From contig JAABTS010000054.1 of assembly GCA_011389735.1 (NCBI GenBank), positions 1 through 34,132 of the forward strand: DNA of 34,132 nt, given 5' to 3'. The position numbers were made by a program, and so were the translations under genes. A model generated the notes under the pieces. The model was not told where the DNA came from, did no database searches, and saw nothing but the letters and a program-made list of their open reading frames with translations. Below are positions 1,288-33,849 of the stretch, one piece after another; positions within the stretch are counted from its first letter, which is position 1; each line of letters opens with the position of its first letter. Origin of the DNA: Desulfobacteraceae bacterium (GTDB taxonomy: Bacteria; Desulfobacterota; Desulfobacteria; Desulfobacterales; JAABTS01).

Positions 1288-1392
1288 TATAGGTTTCAGG
1301 TATTAAATTTCACAATGCGGTGCGCCTGGGATAGTCCTGTTCATAGATCCCGGGCCGACAACGCAGTGAAATTTAATTTCTGGCAGATTATA
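1288..1392 (-). repeat. Palindromic repeat family 1, full copy
   Basis: It starts TATAGGTTTCAG, then TATTAAATTTCAC, has a core of CCTGGGAT...GATCCCGGG, then GCCGACAACGCAGTGAAA and TTTAATTTCTG, and ends near TATAG. The outer arms are inverted copies of each other (GTGAAATTTAATTTC type) and the core is a second palindrome. Orientation is taken from the CCGACAACGCA arm, which lies on the right here. Confidence 0.8.
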
Positions 1393-2430: not shown

Positions 2431-2485
2431 AATCACTCCCTGATTTCTCGAATTGCAAAAAGTTAATTGCCTCTTACGGCGCCGA

Positions 2486-2580
2486 TTTTCTGGAATTAAA
2501 TATTACAAAACGGCGGGCCCTGGATATTGTACTCAGTATATCCAGGGCGGCCGGCGCAGTGAAATGGATTTTTTGAAAAG
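2486..2580 (-). repeat. Palindromic repeat family 1, diverged full copy
   Basis: TTTTCTGGAATTAAATATTA on the left, core GGGCCCTGGATAT...ATATCCAGGGC, then CCGGCGCAGTGAAAT on the right. The core palindrome is preserved by matching changes on both arms (CCTGGATAT/ATATCCAGG), unlike the TGGGAT of other copies. Confidence 0.75.
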
Positions 2581-2608
2581 CGGCAGGGCGGGATTCCTCC
2601 AACGCCTG

Positions 2609-7786: not shown

Positions 7787-7802
7787 TTTATACCTCCTCC
7801 TA

Positions 7803-7908
7803 CAGGTTTTCAGATATCGGATTTCAGAAAAAATCAAGGCGGGAGATCATGATAGTCGTTTATCCCCCGGCCGGCGGCGCACTGAAATATCATATCTGAA
7901 AGGCTATA
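7803..7908 (-). repeat. Palindromic repeat family 1, diverged copy
   Basis: CAGGTTTTCAGATATCGGAT at the left, then AAGGCGGGAGATCATGATAG, TCGTTTATCCCCCGGCC, GGCGGCGCACTGAAATATC and ATATCTGAAAGGCTATA. The core is eroded, but the CGCACTGAAAT arm and the TATA-ended right arm are clear. Confidence 0.65.
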
Positions 7909-8316
7909 AATTTCGATGTTCTCAATATTTACGCTGATGAACTTCCTTAATATCGCAATTCCATATATTTGTCAATTTGGAACACGACGCAGATCCTGAT
8001 TAATACACATATATAACAATGACTTATATTGAAATTCAATAGTTTCAAAGCCTGTGGTTACAGGCGGCGCAGCCATTCACTTATCCACTTTATAAAACCC
8101 GTCATTTCGATAACCACCGGATTTTTTAAATTCGCCGGCTTTAAAAGCTTTTAAAATTTGTAAATTTTTGATACCCGAATACATGGATATGGGTTCGCTC
8201 GACAAAGTTTTTTAGTTTTGCGGAAAATTGCCGTGAAAGGAAGTAGTAACTGAAAATGGATCGGGTTTTTCAGAGATGGTGTTTGAAAGGGGCGGCGGGA
8301 TGCTGTCGTATATATT

Positions 8317-8370
8317 CTTCCAGAAATTAAATTTCACTGCGTTGTCGGCCTGGGATATACGAATATTATT
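8317..8370 (+). repeat. Palindromic repeat family 1, left half only
   Basis: CTTCCAGAAATTAAATTTCA, then CTGCGTTGTCGGCCTGGGAT, then ATACGAATATTATT. The sequence follows the family consensus exactly to the loop of the core and then changes abruptly into the TTGAATG hairpin. The right half is not found downstream. Confidence 0.75.
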
Positions 8371-8449
8371 ATGTTGAATTTTGAATTTTGAATGTTGAAT
8401 GTTGAATGTGAGTCCCCTCATTTAGCATTTAACATTTAGCATTCAACAT
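8371..8449. repeat. Long imperfect hairpin of TTGAATG-like units
   Basis: The left arm is a run of short units (ATGTTGAATTTTGAATTTTG, then AATGTTGAATGTTGAATG). The right arm is their imperfect complement (CATTTAGCATTTAACATT, then TAGCATTCAACAT). A GTGAG/CCTCA pair closes a tiny loop at about 8408-8419. A stem of 33-41 bp with mismatches would form in DNA or RNA about 40 bases upstream of the next start codon. Confidence 0.7.
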
Positions 8450-8487
8450 AAATATGATTATAATTCGTGATGAAAGGAGCTGGAAAA

Positions 8488-8904: not shown

Positions 8905-8916
8905 GCGATCTTTACA

Positions 8917-9041
8917 GCTTTTTAGATATTAAAGTTCAGTGGGTAATAGATAGGAGATATACGACGTTGTCGGCCTGGGATATGCGAATAGTATTATCCC
9001 AGGCCGCCTCCTCGAGAAATTTAATATCTGAAACCCTATAT
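8917..9041 (+). repeat. Palindromic repeat family 1, full copy with extra sequence
   Basis: The left arm is AGCTTTTTAGATATTAAAGT, the core is GTTGTCGGCCTGGGATATGC, GAATAGTATTATCCCAGGCC, and the right arm is GAGAAATTTAATATCTGAAA, then CCCTATA. About 20 bp of unrelated sequence (around 8940-8960) sits between the left arm and the core. Confidence 0.8.
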
Positions 9042-10195: not shown

Positions 10196-10249
10196 AAAAA
10201 GCTTTCCTTTGGAGACCACTTGAAACGATAACGGCGAAACGGTGATAGT

Positions 10250-10343
10250 ATTTCGAAAATTAAATCTATATGTGTTGTCGGCCTGGGATATACGAATAGT
10301 ATAATCCCAAGTACGCCGCCTTGTTAAGTTTTTTTCCGACAAC
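10250..10343 (+). repeat. Palindromic repeat family 1, full copy between convergent genes
   Basis: TTTCGAAAATTAAATCTATA, then TGTGTTGTCGGCCTGGGATA, TACGAATAGTATAATCCCAA, then GTACGCCGCCTTGTTAAGTT. It lies between the ends of the aminotransferase and the receiver/kinase genes, and it could act as a bidirectional terminator-like hairpin. Confidence 0.8.
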
Positions 10344-10356
10344 CTGAAGATCCGGC

Positions 10357-11764: not shown

Positions 11765-11825
11765 TGATTACGAATAGTATGATCCCAGGGCCGCCGCCTT
11801 GTGAGCTTCAATTCCTGAGAACCTT
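11765..11825 (+). repeat. Palindromic repeat family 1, right half
   Basis: TGATTACGAATAGTATGATC, CCAGGGCCGCCGCCTTGTGA, then GCTTCAATTCCTGAGA. The left half before the core loop is missing, the mirror of the copy at 8317. Confidence 0.7.
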
Positions 11826-11991: not shown

Positions 11992-14991
11992 ATGTTGTCC
12001 AATGAATCCGATTCAAAACCGGAAAAAATAGTTTATCAAAAGATTTCGGACGATTTCGATCTTTCGTTCAAAGTTTATCACGATTTAATGGCCCGCCGGG
12101 TCAGTGAAATTCTTCTGGTTTCGAGCGCTTATGACGCATTTATCATGGAAGAGGACGGGCGACTGGCGGAACGGATTATCCATGAATATCGTGGTTTGAA
12201 TTTGACCCGGCCTCCCAGAGTCACATGGGTGCCGGATACGAAGCATGCGTTTGTGGAACTTGCGCGAAAACGGTTTGATCTAATCCTGACCATGCCTCGG
12301 TTAGACGACCTTGACCCTTATCTGTTCGGGAAAGAGATCAAACAAAAATATCATAACCTGCCTGTATTTCTGCTCACCCACGGAGGCAGCGCCGTTGTCG
12401 AACCGGCCGGAAACGATTCGACCATCGACCGGCGTTTCGTATGGACCGGTAACACCGATTTGCTCCTGGCCCTGATCAAAAATGTGGAAGACTGCATGAA
12501 CGCTCCGTTCGACACCCGCCGGGCGAGGGTCCGGGTTATCATCGTGGTCGAAGATTCGCCTCATTATTCTTCTTCACTCCTCCCCATGCTTTACAAAGAG
12601 GTCGTAACCCAGACCAATGCGGTCATCGAAGAGTCCCTCAATGAAGAACATCGAATTCTGAGAATGCGTGCAAGACCGAAGATCATTCTGGCTCAGTCGT
12701 TTGAACAGGCGGTACGGAATTATAATAAGTATAAACCGTATCTGCTCAGTATTTTTTCGGATGTGAGATTTCCAAAAGCGGGCGTCGTCGACGCTCACGC
12801 CGGTTTCAAACTGCTCAGCGCCGTCAAGGAACAGATGCCGAACGTTCCGCTGCTGATGTTGAGCGCCGAAGAAGAAAACCGGGACATGGCCGCCAAAATA
12901 CCCGCAGAATTTTTGAATAAAAATTCTCCGAATTTATTGTCTGAAATCAGAACGTTTTTGCAGGAACATCTCGGGTTCGGCCCCTTTATCTTTCAAGAGG
13001 AAGACGGAACTGAAATCGGCAGGGCTTACAATACCCATGAAATGGAAATCATGCTGCCCGCCATATCCGATGAATCGATCTGGTATCATGCGGTTCGGCA
13101 TCATTTTTCACGATGGCTGATGGCTCGTTCCGAAATCCAGTTGGCCGCCAAACTAAGGGCGGCCGACGCCGGCGATTTCAGCGGCCCGGGCGCTATAAAG
13201 CAGTATCTGATCGATTGTATCAGAGAACGAAAAAAAGGGCGTCAAAGAGGTGTCGTAACCGATTTTATACGGGAAAAATTCGATCCGGATATGGATTTTT
13301 TGAAAATCGGGAAAGGATCTCTCGGCGGAAAGGCCCGGGGCCTTGCTTTCATAAGCACTTTATTGAAAAACACTTCGTCTCTTAGGAATAAATTCCCTGG
13401 CATTGTCATATCCGTGCCTAAATCGCTGGTAATTTCGACGGAAAGTTTCGACGCCTTTATGAATTTGAATGGATTCAAGGCCTCCGAAATTTGCGAAAAG
13501 GGAGATACGGCGATTCGGAAAATGTATCTGGCGGCTGAACTTCCGGAGCGTTTAATGCTTGATCTTCGCCGCTATCTGGCGGATGTGCGGTATCCCATCG
13601 CCGTCCGGTCGTCGAGTCTTCTGGAGGACGCTCAATATCAAGCGCGAGCCGGGATATACATGACATACATGACGCCCAACAACGATCCCGATATAGACGT
13701 AAGGCTCCGGCGGTTGGCCGACGCCATCAAACTCGTATACGGATCGACCTATATGGAATCGGCGGTTACCTTCTCCAGAAGCACTCATCAACGCACCGAA
13801 GAAGAAAAAATGGGCGTGGTGATCCAAAAATTGACCGGAGTCCGGTATGGTGATTTGTTTTTTCCGGCTCTTTCCGGCGTGGCTCAATCGTACAACTTTT
13901 ATCCCATATCATATATGAAACCGGAAGAAGGTATTGTTCATGTTGCGGCGGGCTTGGGAAGAACAGTGGTCGAGGGGGGCACGGCGATGCGTTTTTCTCC
14001 CGGACATCCTCAATTTTTGCCGCACCTGTCTTCCGTGGACGATATTTTGAAACACTCCCAGCGTCTGCTGTATGCTCTGGATATGAAACATTCAGGGAAT
14101 TGGCCGGCTTCCGGGAATGAAGATACGCTTTTACGTCTTGAAATAGATGATCCAAGGGTCGCCGGCGTTTATCCGCTAAGGTTGCTATGCAGCACCTACG
14201 ATCCCAATGACCACAGGATCAGGGACGGCGCCGCCGGACGAGGTTACAAAGTGCTGACCTTCGCATCAATTTTAAAATACAATATGTTTCCCCTGGCTGA
14301 AGTGGTTTCCGAAATTCTTGAGATGGGACGAAAAGGCATGGGCGGTCCCGTGGAAATCGAGTACGCGGTCAATTTATTCGAAGACCCCGCCAGGCCTGCG
14401 GAATTCGACCTGCTACAGGTACGTCCCATGGTTCTCAACCAAAAAAATATGATGGTTGAAATCACCGATGACGACATCCGGGAGGCGGTCTGTTTTTCAA
14501 CCAACGCCCTTGGGAATGGAATCGCAACGGATATTGCGGATATCGTGACGGTTGATCCGAAAACGTTTGACCCCTCGCAAACCATCAAAATAGCCCAGGA
14601 AATCGACACTATCAACAAAGAAATGATTCATGAAGGCCGAAAATACTTGCTTATCGGACCGGGGCGTTGGGGTTCGGCGGACCGGTGGCTGGGCGTGCCG
14701 GTGGCGTGGAATAATATTTCAAACGTCGGAGCTATAATTGAAGCGAGCCTCCCGGCATTGAAGGCCAATCCGTCTCAAGGTTCCCATTTTTTCAACAATA
14801 TCACATCTCTTGGAATCAGTTACATCACTATATCCGAGACCAGCGACGATTTTATCGACTGGGATCGAATTATGTCCTGGCCGTCGGAAAAGAAGACCCG
14901 TTTTTTGTGGCGTATCCGATGTAAGCAGCCTATGGTTATCAAGGTGGATGGAAAACAATCAAAATCCGTGATACTTGAAAATGGATCGTGA
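11992..14991 (+). CDS. Double receiver-like protein with PEP-synthase/PPDK ATP-grasp domain
   Basis: 999 residues, soluble. Residues about 1-170 form a receiver-like alpha/beta domain lacking a clear phosphoacceptor, and about 180-330 a second receiver (VRVIIVVEDSP; candidate Asp257 in SIFSDVRFPKAG). From about 435 comes a PPDK/PEP-synthase N-terminal ATP-grasp domain (KIGKGSLGGKARGL at 438-451, then VRSSSLLEDAQYQARAGIY at 538-556). The distinctive C-terminus includes LLIGPGRWGSADRWLGVPV and SQGSHFFNNITSLGI. I see no swivelling phosphohistidine domain and no PEP/pyruvate TIM barrel, so it should not be annotated as PEP synthase; a nucleotide-dependent phosphotransfer role is an inference. It has its own candidate promoter and diverges from the receiver/kinase gene. 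Confidence 0.85.
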   Translation: MLSNESDSKPEKIVYQKISDDFDLSFKVYHDLMARRVSEILLVSSAYDAFIMEEDGRLAERIIHEYRGLNLTRPPRVTWVPDTKHAFVELARKRFDLILTMPRLDDLDPYLFGKEIKQKYHNLPVFLLTHGGSAVVEPAGNDSTIDRRFVWTGNTDLLLALIKNVEDCMNAPFDTRRARVRVIIVVEDSPHYSSSLLPMLYKEVVTQTNAVIEESLNEEHRILRMRARPKIILAQSFEQAVRNYNKYKPYLLSIFSDVRFPKAGVVDAHAGFKLLSAVKEQMPNVPLLMLSAEEENRDMAAKIPAEFLNKNSPNLLSEIRTFLQEHLGFGPFIFQEEDGTEIGRAYNTHEMEIMLPAISDESIWYHAVRHHFSRWLMARSEIQLAAKLRAADAGDFSGPGAIKQYLIDCIRERKKGRQRGVVTDFIREKFDPDMDFLKIGKGSLGGKARGLAFISTLLKNTSSLRNKFPGIVISVPKSLVISTESFDAFMNLNGFKASEICEKGDTAIRKMYLAAELPERLMLDLRRYLADVRYPIAVRSSSLLEDAQYQARAGIYMTYMTPNNDPDIDVRLRRLADAIKLVYGSTYMESAVTFSRSTHQRTEEEKMGVVIQKLTGVRYGDLFFPALSGVAQSYNFYPISYMKPEEGIVHVAAGLGRTVVEGGTAMRFSPGHPQFLPHLSSVDDILKHSQRLLYALDMKHSGNWPASGNEDTLLRLEIDDPRVAGVYPLRLLCSTYDPNDHRIRDGAAGRGYKVLTFASILKYNMFPLAEVVSEILEMGRKGMGGPVEIEYAVNLFEDPARPAEFDLLQVRPMVLNQKNMMVEITDDDIREAVCFSTNALGNGIATDIADIVTVDPKTFDPSQTIKIAQEIDTINKEMIHEGRKYLLIGPGRWGSADRWLGVPVAWNNISNVGAIIEASLPALKANPSQGSHFFNNITSLGISYITISETSDDFIDWDRIMSWPSEKKTRFLWRIRCKQPMVIKVDGKQSKSVILENGS

Positions 14992-15000
14992 ACATACAAC

Positions 15001-15120
15001 GCTTTTTCCAAAATTCAATTTCCTAAACCGTTGGACCGAAGCCATCCGCTGATGATCCCTTCCGGCGGCGCAACGGAAACGATTTGCCGTAAAAAGTGTC
15101 TTGCGTAAATTTAATTTTTA
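15001..15120. repeat. Possible heavily decayed family 1 repeat
   Basis: AAAATTCAATTTCC at the left, then TGATGATCCCTTCCGGCGGC and GCAACGGAAA, then TAAATTTAATTTTTAAACTA. The pieces are in the family order but poorly conserved. Treat as tentative. Confidence 0.3.
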
Positions 15121-15190
15121 AACTATAAAACGGCTGTTTCATCAAAATCGCCGCAATGAATCTTACGGCGCATTCAGACCGGAGGAAAAC

Positions 15191-16059: not shown

Positions 16060-16140
16060 TTTCTCTGTGACGCGGGCCCGGGATAACCACTGTATATTAT
16101 CCCAGGCCCGCCCTTTTAGTTTAAGTTCTTCCCTGAAAAG
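16060..16140. repeat. Palindromic repeat family 1 variant between convergent genes
   Basis: The core GGGCCCGGGATAA...TTATCCCAGGCCCG (16074-16110) forms a long hairpin followed by CCCTTTTAGTTTAAGTT. The outer arms are eroded. It lies between the SEC-C gene and the end of the AOR gene and, being followed by a short T-run, may terminate the plus-strand transcript. Confidence 0.6.
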
Positions 16141-16175
16141 CGATCCGCCCTTAAACGGAATCCGCAATCCGCTGT

Positions 16176-20243: not shown

Positions 20244-20378
20244 TGAATACGATTCTTTTTTTGAATTGTTAGTATAGGTCTGTTTTTAACATTACGCGGA
20301 TTTTTTTACAAACACTAATTTTATTCAATGGGAAACAAATTAACTTTTTTTTTCGGAGCTTCGACCCCGGCTAAGGCC

Positions 20379-20475
20379 AATACTGGCGCATGGATACAAT
20401 TCATATTTTTGAACAAAATTATAATTGCGCCGGCAGGGGGTTTGAACAGGCAAGGATGCCTGTTCTACGGGGATA
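20379..20475 (-). repeat. Repeat family 2, copy A (reverse orientation)
   Basis: Its reverse complement matches 33721-33820 over nearly its whole length: TAGAACAGGCATCCTTGCCT, GTTCAAAC, then CGCAATTATAATTTTGTTCA and AAAATATGAATTGTATCCAT. The terminal inverted repeats are eroded compared with the other copy. Confidence 0.8.
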
Positions 20476-20547
20476 AAACCGGTTGAATGGTATTGCATTC
20501 AAGGGGATTGCGGCTAAGACGGGAGACTATGGATTGGATTACTGACA

Positions 20548-20652
20548 GGCTTTCAGAAATTTAATTTAACAAGGATGCAGATCCGGGACACCACTGCACT
20601 GTTCGTATATTCGATGCCGACAGCACAGTGAAATATAATTTCCGGAAGATTA
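20548..20652 (-). repeat. Palindromic repeat family 1, full copy with decayed core
   Basis: The left arm is GCTTTCAGAAATTTAATTTA, then ACAAGGATGCAG, a core with GTTCGTATAT, and the right arm GCCGACAGCACAGTGAAATA, TAATTTCCGGAAG. The arms are well kept while the core palindrome is degraded. Confidence 0.75.
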
Positions 20653-23752: not shown

Positions 23753-23785
23753 GACGACTCCTAATCCGATTGGTTTTTATTCAAT

Positions 23786-24004
23786 ATAAACTTCCGGAAA
23801 TTCAATTTCGCCGCGTTGTCGGTCCGGGTTATATGAATAATATAGGTTTTCAGAAATTAAATTTCACAAGGCGGCAGGCCTGGGATCATACTATTCGTAT
23901 ATCCCAGGCCGACAACACAGAGAAATTTGATTTCTGGAAGGCTATAGTATTAGCCCAGTCCCGCCGCCTGGTGAAATCCATAGCCTTTCAGATATTAAAT
24001 TTAA
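23786..24004. repeat. Nested cluster of palindromic repeat family 1
   Basis: A left half (23786-23830, GCCGCGTTGTCGGTCCGGGT then TATATGAATA) is interrupted by a complete copy in the other orientation (about 23831-23946). The right half follows at once (GTATTAGCCCAGTCCCGCCG, CCTGGTGAAAT). Joining the flanks restores TATGAATA-GTATTAGCCC, the normal loop and core of the family. A further arm (CATAGCCTTTCAGATATTAA) follows to within a few bases of the hom stop codon. The inner copy is the best-preserved of the window. Confidence 0.85.
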
Positions 24005-33720: not shown

Positions 33721-33820
33721 AATACCCGTGTAGAACAGGCATTCTTGCCTGTTCAAACCGCCTGTAAGCGCAATTTTTAATTTTGTTCAAAAATATGAAT
33801 TGTATTCATGCACGGGTATT
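33721..33820 (+). repeat. Repeat family 2, copy B with intact terminal inverted repeats
   Basis: A 100 bp element bounded by a perfect 10 bp inverted pair, AATACCCGTG at the left and CACGGGTATT at the right. Inside, GAACAGGCA TTCT TGCCTGTTC forms a perfect 9 bp stem and is followed by the AT-rich TTGTTCAAAAATATGAATTG. It matches copy A at 20379-20475 in reverse orientation. It has no coding capacity, so it is a MITE-like element. Confidence 0.8.
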
Positions 33821-33849
33821 GTTTTTAAGCCGGAGCAATTGGGAGATGT

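Follow-up and report, generated by a model that had tools for sequence, protein, structure and literature searches.

One member of a repeat family lies inserted in an older member of the same family within the window (the whole stretch of DNA that was analysed, 34,132 nucleotides from a sulfate-reducing Desulfobacteraceae bacterium). Very probably, the inserted copy is a non-autonomous miniature inverted-repeat element (MITE) of IS630 type (Tc1/mariner superfamily) that entered the older copy in cut-and-paste style. Sequence and a profile search resolved positions 23785-24003 into three members of the family, with the following parts.

23785..23840, + strand: older copy, left part, up to the GAATAA loop (model 1 to about 56)
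23841..23946, - strand: inner, younger copy, 106 bp including both flanking TAs
23841..23842, no strand: TA target duplication, left copy (from sequence, calibrated on sister events L089, L151, L159, and L044)
23843-23944, - strand: inner element proper, TAG...CTA, within the inner copy
23945..23946, no strand: TA target duplication, right copy (calibrated on the same four events)
23947..23976, + strand: older copy, right part (GTATTAGCCC...GTGAAATC), up to model about 87
23980..24003, + strand: third copy, terminal fragment (ATAGCCTTTCAGATATTAAATTTA; 87% over 23 nt, E=0.01)

The nesting of one family member in another is confirmed. The inner copy has the ends TATAGG...GGCTATA, matched the family profile at 117.7 bits (nhmmer, E=5.7e-35), and is 97% identical to its closest relative in the genome (C206:42378-42483). 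The two parts of the older copy matched separately: 23785-23843 aligned to model 1-59 (41.7 bits, E=2.3e-11), whereas 23944-23977 aligned to model 53-86 (18.5 bits, E=3.5e-4). When the inner copy was excised and one TA retained, they became a single match that covers model 1-87 and scores 67 bits, with the junction at about model 57. The reversed sequence gave no matches in the profile search at the same threshold, which excludes chance as the source of the nested matches. The remainder of the older copy's right arm is absent beyond about 23976, and the third-copy fragment fills 23980-24003, so the older copy does not itself end at 24004.

These results bear out much of the preliminary description of this locus, which had a full element in reverse orientation interrupting an older copy and took this as a sign that the family is mobile. 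It also called the inner copy the best conserved, which is true within the window (117.7 versus 67 bits), and put the break in the apical loop of the core. That position agrees with the fold of the element: the insertion site is the GAATA hairpin loop of the older, decayed copy. Divergence suggests that the inner copy is far younger than its host. However, the left edge had been set at 23831, about 10 nt too far left; the inner copy starts at 23841, and a cut of 23831-23946 would also take a piece of the older copy, 23831-23839 (ATATGAATA). The joint that had been given, TATGAATA followed by GTATTAGCCC, matches excision of 23840-23946 (107 nt).

The family itself encodes no protein. Its members are imperfect palindromes of about 106 bp (TATAGYCTTCCAGAAATYAAATTTCACTGYGTTGTCGGCCYGGGATATACGAATAGTATKATCCC...GCCTTGTGAAATTTAATTTCTGAAAACCTATA) with terminal inverted repeats of 26-27 bp (TATAGNYTTYCAGAAATTAAATTTCAC and its partner). 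The inner copy folds into a long hairpin with GAATA as its apical loop (z = -6.6 versus shuffles). There are 116 occurrences of the core pattern in the 6.5-Mb genome and none of its reversed control. Contigs picked regardless of copy number held 181 matches per 0.88 Mb. Extrapolated genome-wide, this gives about 1,300 matches (copies and fragments), or about 1.5% of the sequence. Most copies are intergenic: in this less biased contig sample, 163 of the 181 fall in the gaps of a crude ORF prediction. In a second form, subtype B, the ends are TATAGCTTTTCAGATAATTAATTTCAC and the loop holds TGTTGAATG arrays together with their inverse. These heptamer arrays, followed by the inverse CATTCAACA, are hypervariable and span about 58 to 600 nt (8312-8456 in the window, L093 13690, L043 71, and L101 11717), making subtype B a palindrome that is mobile and has a tandem-repeat hairpin built in. 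No family covering the element was found in Rfam, and no description of it was found in the literature searched. The window holds the following further members.

1288..1392, - strand: complete copy
2484..2581, - strand: decayed copy
7802..7908, - strand: decayed copy
8312..8456, + strand: subtype B copy with a left arm at 8312-8371, TGTTGAATG/CATTCAACA cargo in the loop, and no right arm
8914..9039, + strand: copy
10245..10346, + strand: copy
11768..11825, + strand: right half-copy, model 47-104, without the left arm
16060..16143, + strand: partial copy
20545..20652, - strand: copy

Another inverted-repeat family (CAATACCCGTGAATGAATACAATTCATATTTTTGAAC...) is present at 20378-20475 and 33723-33821; it also occurs in the subtype B loop of L085, near 14710-15186.

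The high copy number allowed the target site to be read within one genome, with hundreds of intact copies representing the empty state and nested copies the filled sites. Four clean self-insertions (L089, L151, L159, and L044) duplicated exactly one TA. All have the layout host-[TA]-TAG...CTA-[TA]-host, and keeping one TA restores the family consensus. The junctions of L089 read ATTCGGA[TA]TAG..CTA[TA]GTATGATCC, and those of L151 read GATACGAA[TA]TAG..CTA[TA]GTATTATCC; both use the loop TA that was also hit in the window (GAA-TA-GTAT). TA flanks both ends of 101 of 186 complete A copies and one end of 71 more. The left junction in the window is unlike those of L089 and L151, because GAATAA stands before the TA. 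A TA duplication there implies that the older copy's loop was already GAATAATAGTATT (GAATAATAGTAT) before the insertion, 3 nt longer than the consensus. This need for three extra bases counts against the TA model at the window junction. An excision footprint was considered as their origin and rejected, since TA-A-TA is unlike a 2-3-nt footprint.

If the duplication were ATA instead, the older copy could have had the plain consensus loop, and the 107-nt excision does leave an exact consensus joint (TATGAATAGTATTAG). With a plain empty loop (GAATAGTATT), the insertion would have added 107 nt and duplicated something other than TA. We consider this unlikely. L089, L151, L159, and L044 duplicate TA alone, and therefore the ATA at the right-hand junction is best read as the element's own terminal A followed by TA. 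Moreover, the longer loop GAATAATAGTAT exists in one intact copy elsewhere (L020), and loops in the family vary from 4 to 9 nt. The duplication had earlier been described as "ATA or TA," of which the TA alternative stands and ATA does not. The accompanying statement that excision restores the consensus without gain or loss is correct for the 107-nt cut only, and the family's mechanism makes no such cut. Recombination or template switching between copies could also be imagined to build a nested structure without transposition. The hundreds of near-palindromic copies offer many substrates, and the half-copies at 8312 and 11768 show that breakage or rearrangement happens. Against this, the inner copy is complete, is bounded by TA on either side, and is far more recent than its host, and the sister nestings have an exact single-TA duplication in hosts that are otherwise unbroken. 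An origin without transposition is thus highly improbable.

The preferred reading, insertion of an IS630-type MITE, takes as given the nesting, the four sister events with their TA duplications, the high copy number, the intergenic position, and the ends shared with Desulfonema magnum described below. A transposase supplied in trans, presumably of IS630 type, would bind the 26-27-bp terminal repeats, release the TAG...CTA element, and join it to a TA. Repair would then duplicate the target TA. The TA chosen here would have been in the apical loop of the older copy's core hairpin (GAA-TA-GTAT, in a form lengthened by three bases).

The core loop had also been proposed as a preferred target, with the copies at 8317 and 11765 cited as further examples of breakage there. 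Neither contains an insertion. The first is a subtype B copy with heptamer cargo and no right arm, and the second is a half-copy that starts in the loop and has no left arm. A first scan for split copies found 29 of 29 interrupted copies broken at model 40-62, but these were mostly subtype B (inherited cargo, not independent insertions), and the scan was blind to short end pieces. We therefore discarded a loop preference based on these 29 when a joined-flank test, in which no position is hidden, left TA-type elements with no excess. The 100- to 110-bp flanks of complete elements were joined and then matched to the model. By this test, 9 of 211 family copies (4.3%) were self-nested, with junctions at model positions of about 15, 33, 53, 57, 57, 58, 60, 83, and 87. 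Five of these nine are in the loop, versus 57% of the internal TAs. M3, a TA-type MITE, had three of nine junctions at model 43-62. Self-insertions and M3 together had 8 of 18 in the loop, matching the TA share (p=0.34). Therefore, the loop is not supported as a preferred target for self-insertion; there is nothing special about it beyond its TA richness.

A broader proposal is that the family and unrelated small elements alike favour the loop of the palindrome for insertion, recognising it as an extruded hairpin or by its sequence. Unrelated MITEs do occur in the loop, namely, M2 with 9-bp duplications (L034, L065, and L138), M3, and the gatgtacagcg family. For the 106-bp family, M2, and M3 pooled, 12 of 26 joined-flank junctions were in model 43-62, which is 19% of the length (p=0.001 versus uniform). 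Only M2 hints at an excess of its own, with four of its eight junctions in the loop (p=0.046 without correction). On the other side, the TA-type insertions follow the TA share, and TA sites in the arms are used too (L159, L044, L038, and several M3 insertions). Self-nesting at 4.3% is also below the 10-14% expected from random intergenic TA insertion. These loop and nesting counts were made on 28% of the genome, partly chosen as copy-rich contigs, with crude gene calls and with old nestings that may be too decayed to detect. It is unlikely that the loop is a favoured site, and equally so that it serves at least three unrelated small-element families with differing target duplications as a shared landing pad, perhaps through an extruded cruciform. 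If it did, the family would grow by palindromes stacked in palindromes and by gain of loop cargo, as in subtype B.

M2 has the ends GGGCTTGRTTCTAATTTCGGCC and 9-bp duplications, and M3 has the ends TATAGTGCTTGAACGAAAA; about a quarter of the tested copies of each sit inside 106-bp family members. Loop insertions by other elements were seen in L034, L041, L065, and L138, and a repeat starting gatgtacagcgattttt comes after the core GATAT(A) in L069, L132, and L045.

A candidate for the mobilising transposase came from D. magnum. There, locus L235 encodes an IS630-family transposase (NF033545, 174 bits; cut-off, 100) in a 1,326-bp element (849-2174) that is bounded by TATAGATGTTCAGAAAAATAATTTCAT and inverted TATAGTTTTTCAGAAAAATAATTTCAC and ends at TATA. 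A second copy in that genome (L232) has 98.7% identity over the transposase region and the same CTATA end. A D. magnum MITE (L206) is identical to the IS630 element at 26 of 26 terminal bases. The subtype B terminus of the source genome matches the two IS ends at 22 of 27 and 24 of 27 positions, and the best shuffled matches were 15-18 in 49 of 50 cases. ISY100, an element of IS630 type, is known to target TA and to duplicate it (PMC2170065). Because the ends are shared with the D. magnum IS630 element and ISY100 duplicates TA, IS630-type (Tc1/mariner) mobilisation in trans is the reading that these sequences best support.

The D. magnum transposase had no match in the source genome, an incomplete 477-contig draft assembly, and no IS630 transposase with the family ends was found there either; absence from such a draft is weak evidence. 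A partner transposase in the same genome is usual for a MITE but not required, and a MITE can outlive its partner. Other candidates were rejected. L031, the sole IS630 gene here (a DDE_3 match), has unrelated 42-bp ends. DUF4096/IS427-type transposases (PF13340; one here and four in the genome of Desulfatirhabdium butyrativorans) had no family ends at four of five loci. The flanking ends at L253, the PF13340 match in the source genome, are 80 nt apart, as in a neighbouring MITE copy. A search of 1.85 Mb for lone ends paired around ORFs gave just weak chance pairs among the matches listed.

Elements with the same ends occur elsewhere in the order Desulfobacterales, including D. butyrativorans (G031), D. 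magnum, and several further genomes. Two of these (G067 and G186) have many mutually similar copies. The G031 elements are about 80% identical and differ in the core stem. Searches of genome and viral contigs with the exact core pattern found nothing outside the source genome, and the TIR pattern detected relatives but none in viral contigs. Many of the G186 relatives are nearly identical (L208, L212, L217, L222, and L225), some with another core (GTACAAATCAGTAC), and G186 may hold an active version of the element. One half copy, together with an identical flank of 30 nt, was seen in both a Desulfobacteraceae MAG and a Sumerlaeota MAG (L197 and L199), which suggests a mis-binned contig.

The nested pair lies in the 257-bp gap between hom and a HAD-family gene, which is occupied by the three repeat copies. 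The two genes are also adjacent in 10 of 11 relatives, where the gap is shorter. The gap could not be aligned in the 11 relatives examined, and no orthologous empty site for the junction was found among them. It is possible that the repeat-filled gap affects transcripts.

The ends and loop of the family presumably resemble the terminal and core sequence of Correia/NEMIS elements. By description, those Neisseria elements (about 107 and 155 bp; PMC2229807) are also alike in size classes, terminal repeats of ~24-26 bp, TA termini, a stem-loop, and a short form and a long form with extra internal sequence, although the long form here has a heptamer-repeat hairpin. The repeat unit of pneumococcus (RUP) is 107 bp, and its mobilisation by IS630-Spn1 has been proposed (PMC2229807, PMC3049150). 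The likeness to RUP, again by description, is in size, terminal inverted repeats shared with IS630, a TA target, intergenic position, and about 100 or more copies. However, RUP is from another organism, and its terminal repeats are 9 bp (PMC2229807) rather than 26-27 bp; the copy number is higher here, and the IS630 partner was found in a related genome instead of the same one. RUP, BOX, and SPRITE are reported to be inserted into one another (PMC3049150). BOX (boxA-boxB(n)-boxC; PMC3049150) resembles subtype B in having a variable tandem array between conserved ends, but here each heptamer array pairs with its inverse within a hairpin loop. REP/BIME sequences, which are struck by IS1397, ISKpn1, and IS621 (PMC1525189), are likewise palindromic intergenic repeats hit by mobile DNA; target choice there is a property of the transposase, whereas self-insertion here follows TA content. 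Identity with REP/REPIN, whose associated transposase is RAYT (Y1), was rejected: a REP/REPIN palindrome measures 20-40 bp and bears a tag such as GTAG on one side (PMC3733652), whereas members here measure 106 bp and have long TIRs and terminal TAs.

Taken as sequence, the family is short, has TIRs in common with an IS630-family transposon, and duplicates TA, and it probably belongs to the IS630-type MITEs, RUP/Correia-like by description; the insertion reading as a whole has a high probability. A 2007 review noted that experimental support for the movement of such MITEs was lacking (PMC2229807). The D. magnum IS630 element is a concrete candidate transposase for moving a bacterial MITE. Furthermore, nested copies make filled and empty sites available within a single genome, with no second strain needed, and they thereby fix TA as the target of a family that extends across the Desulfobacterales and reaches high numbers in several of their genomes.
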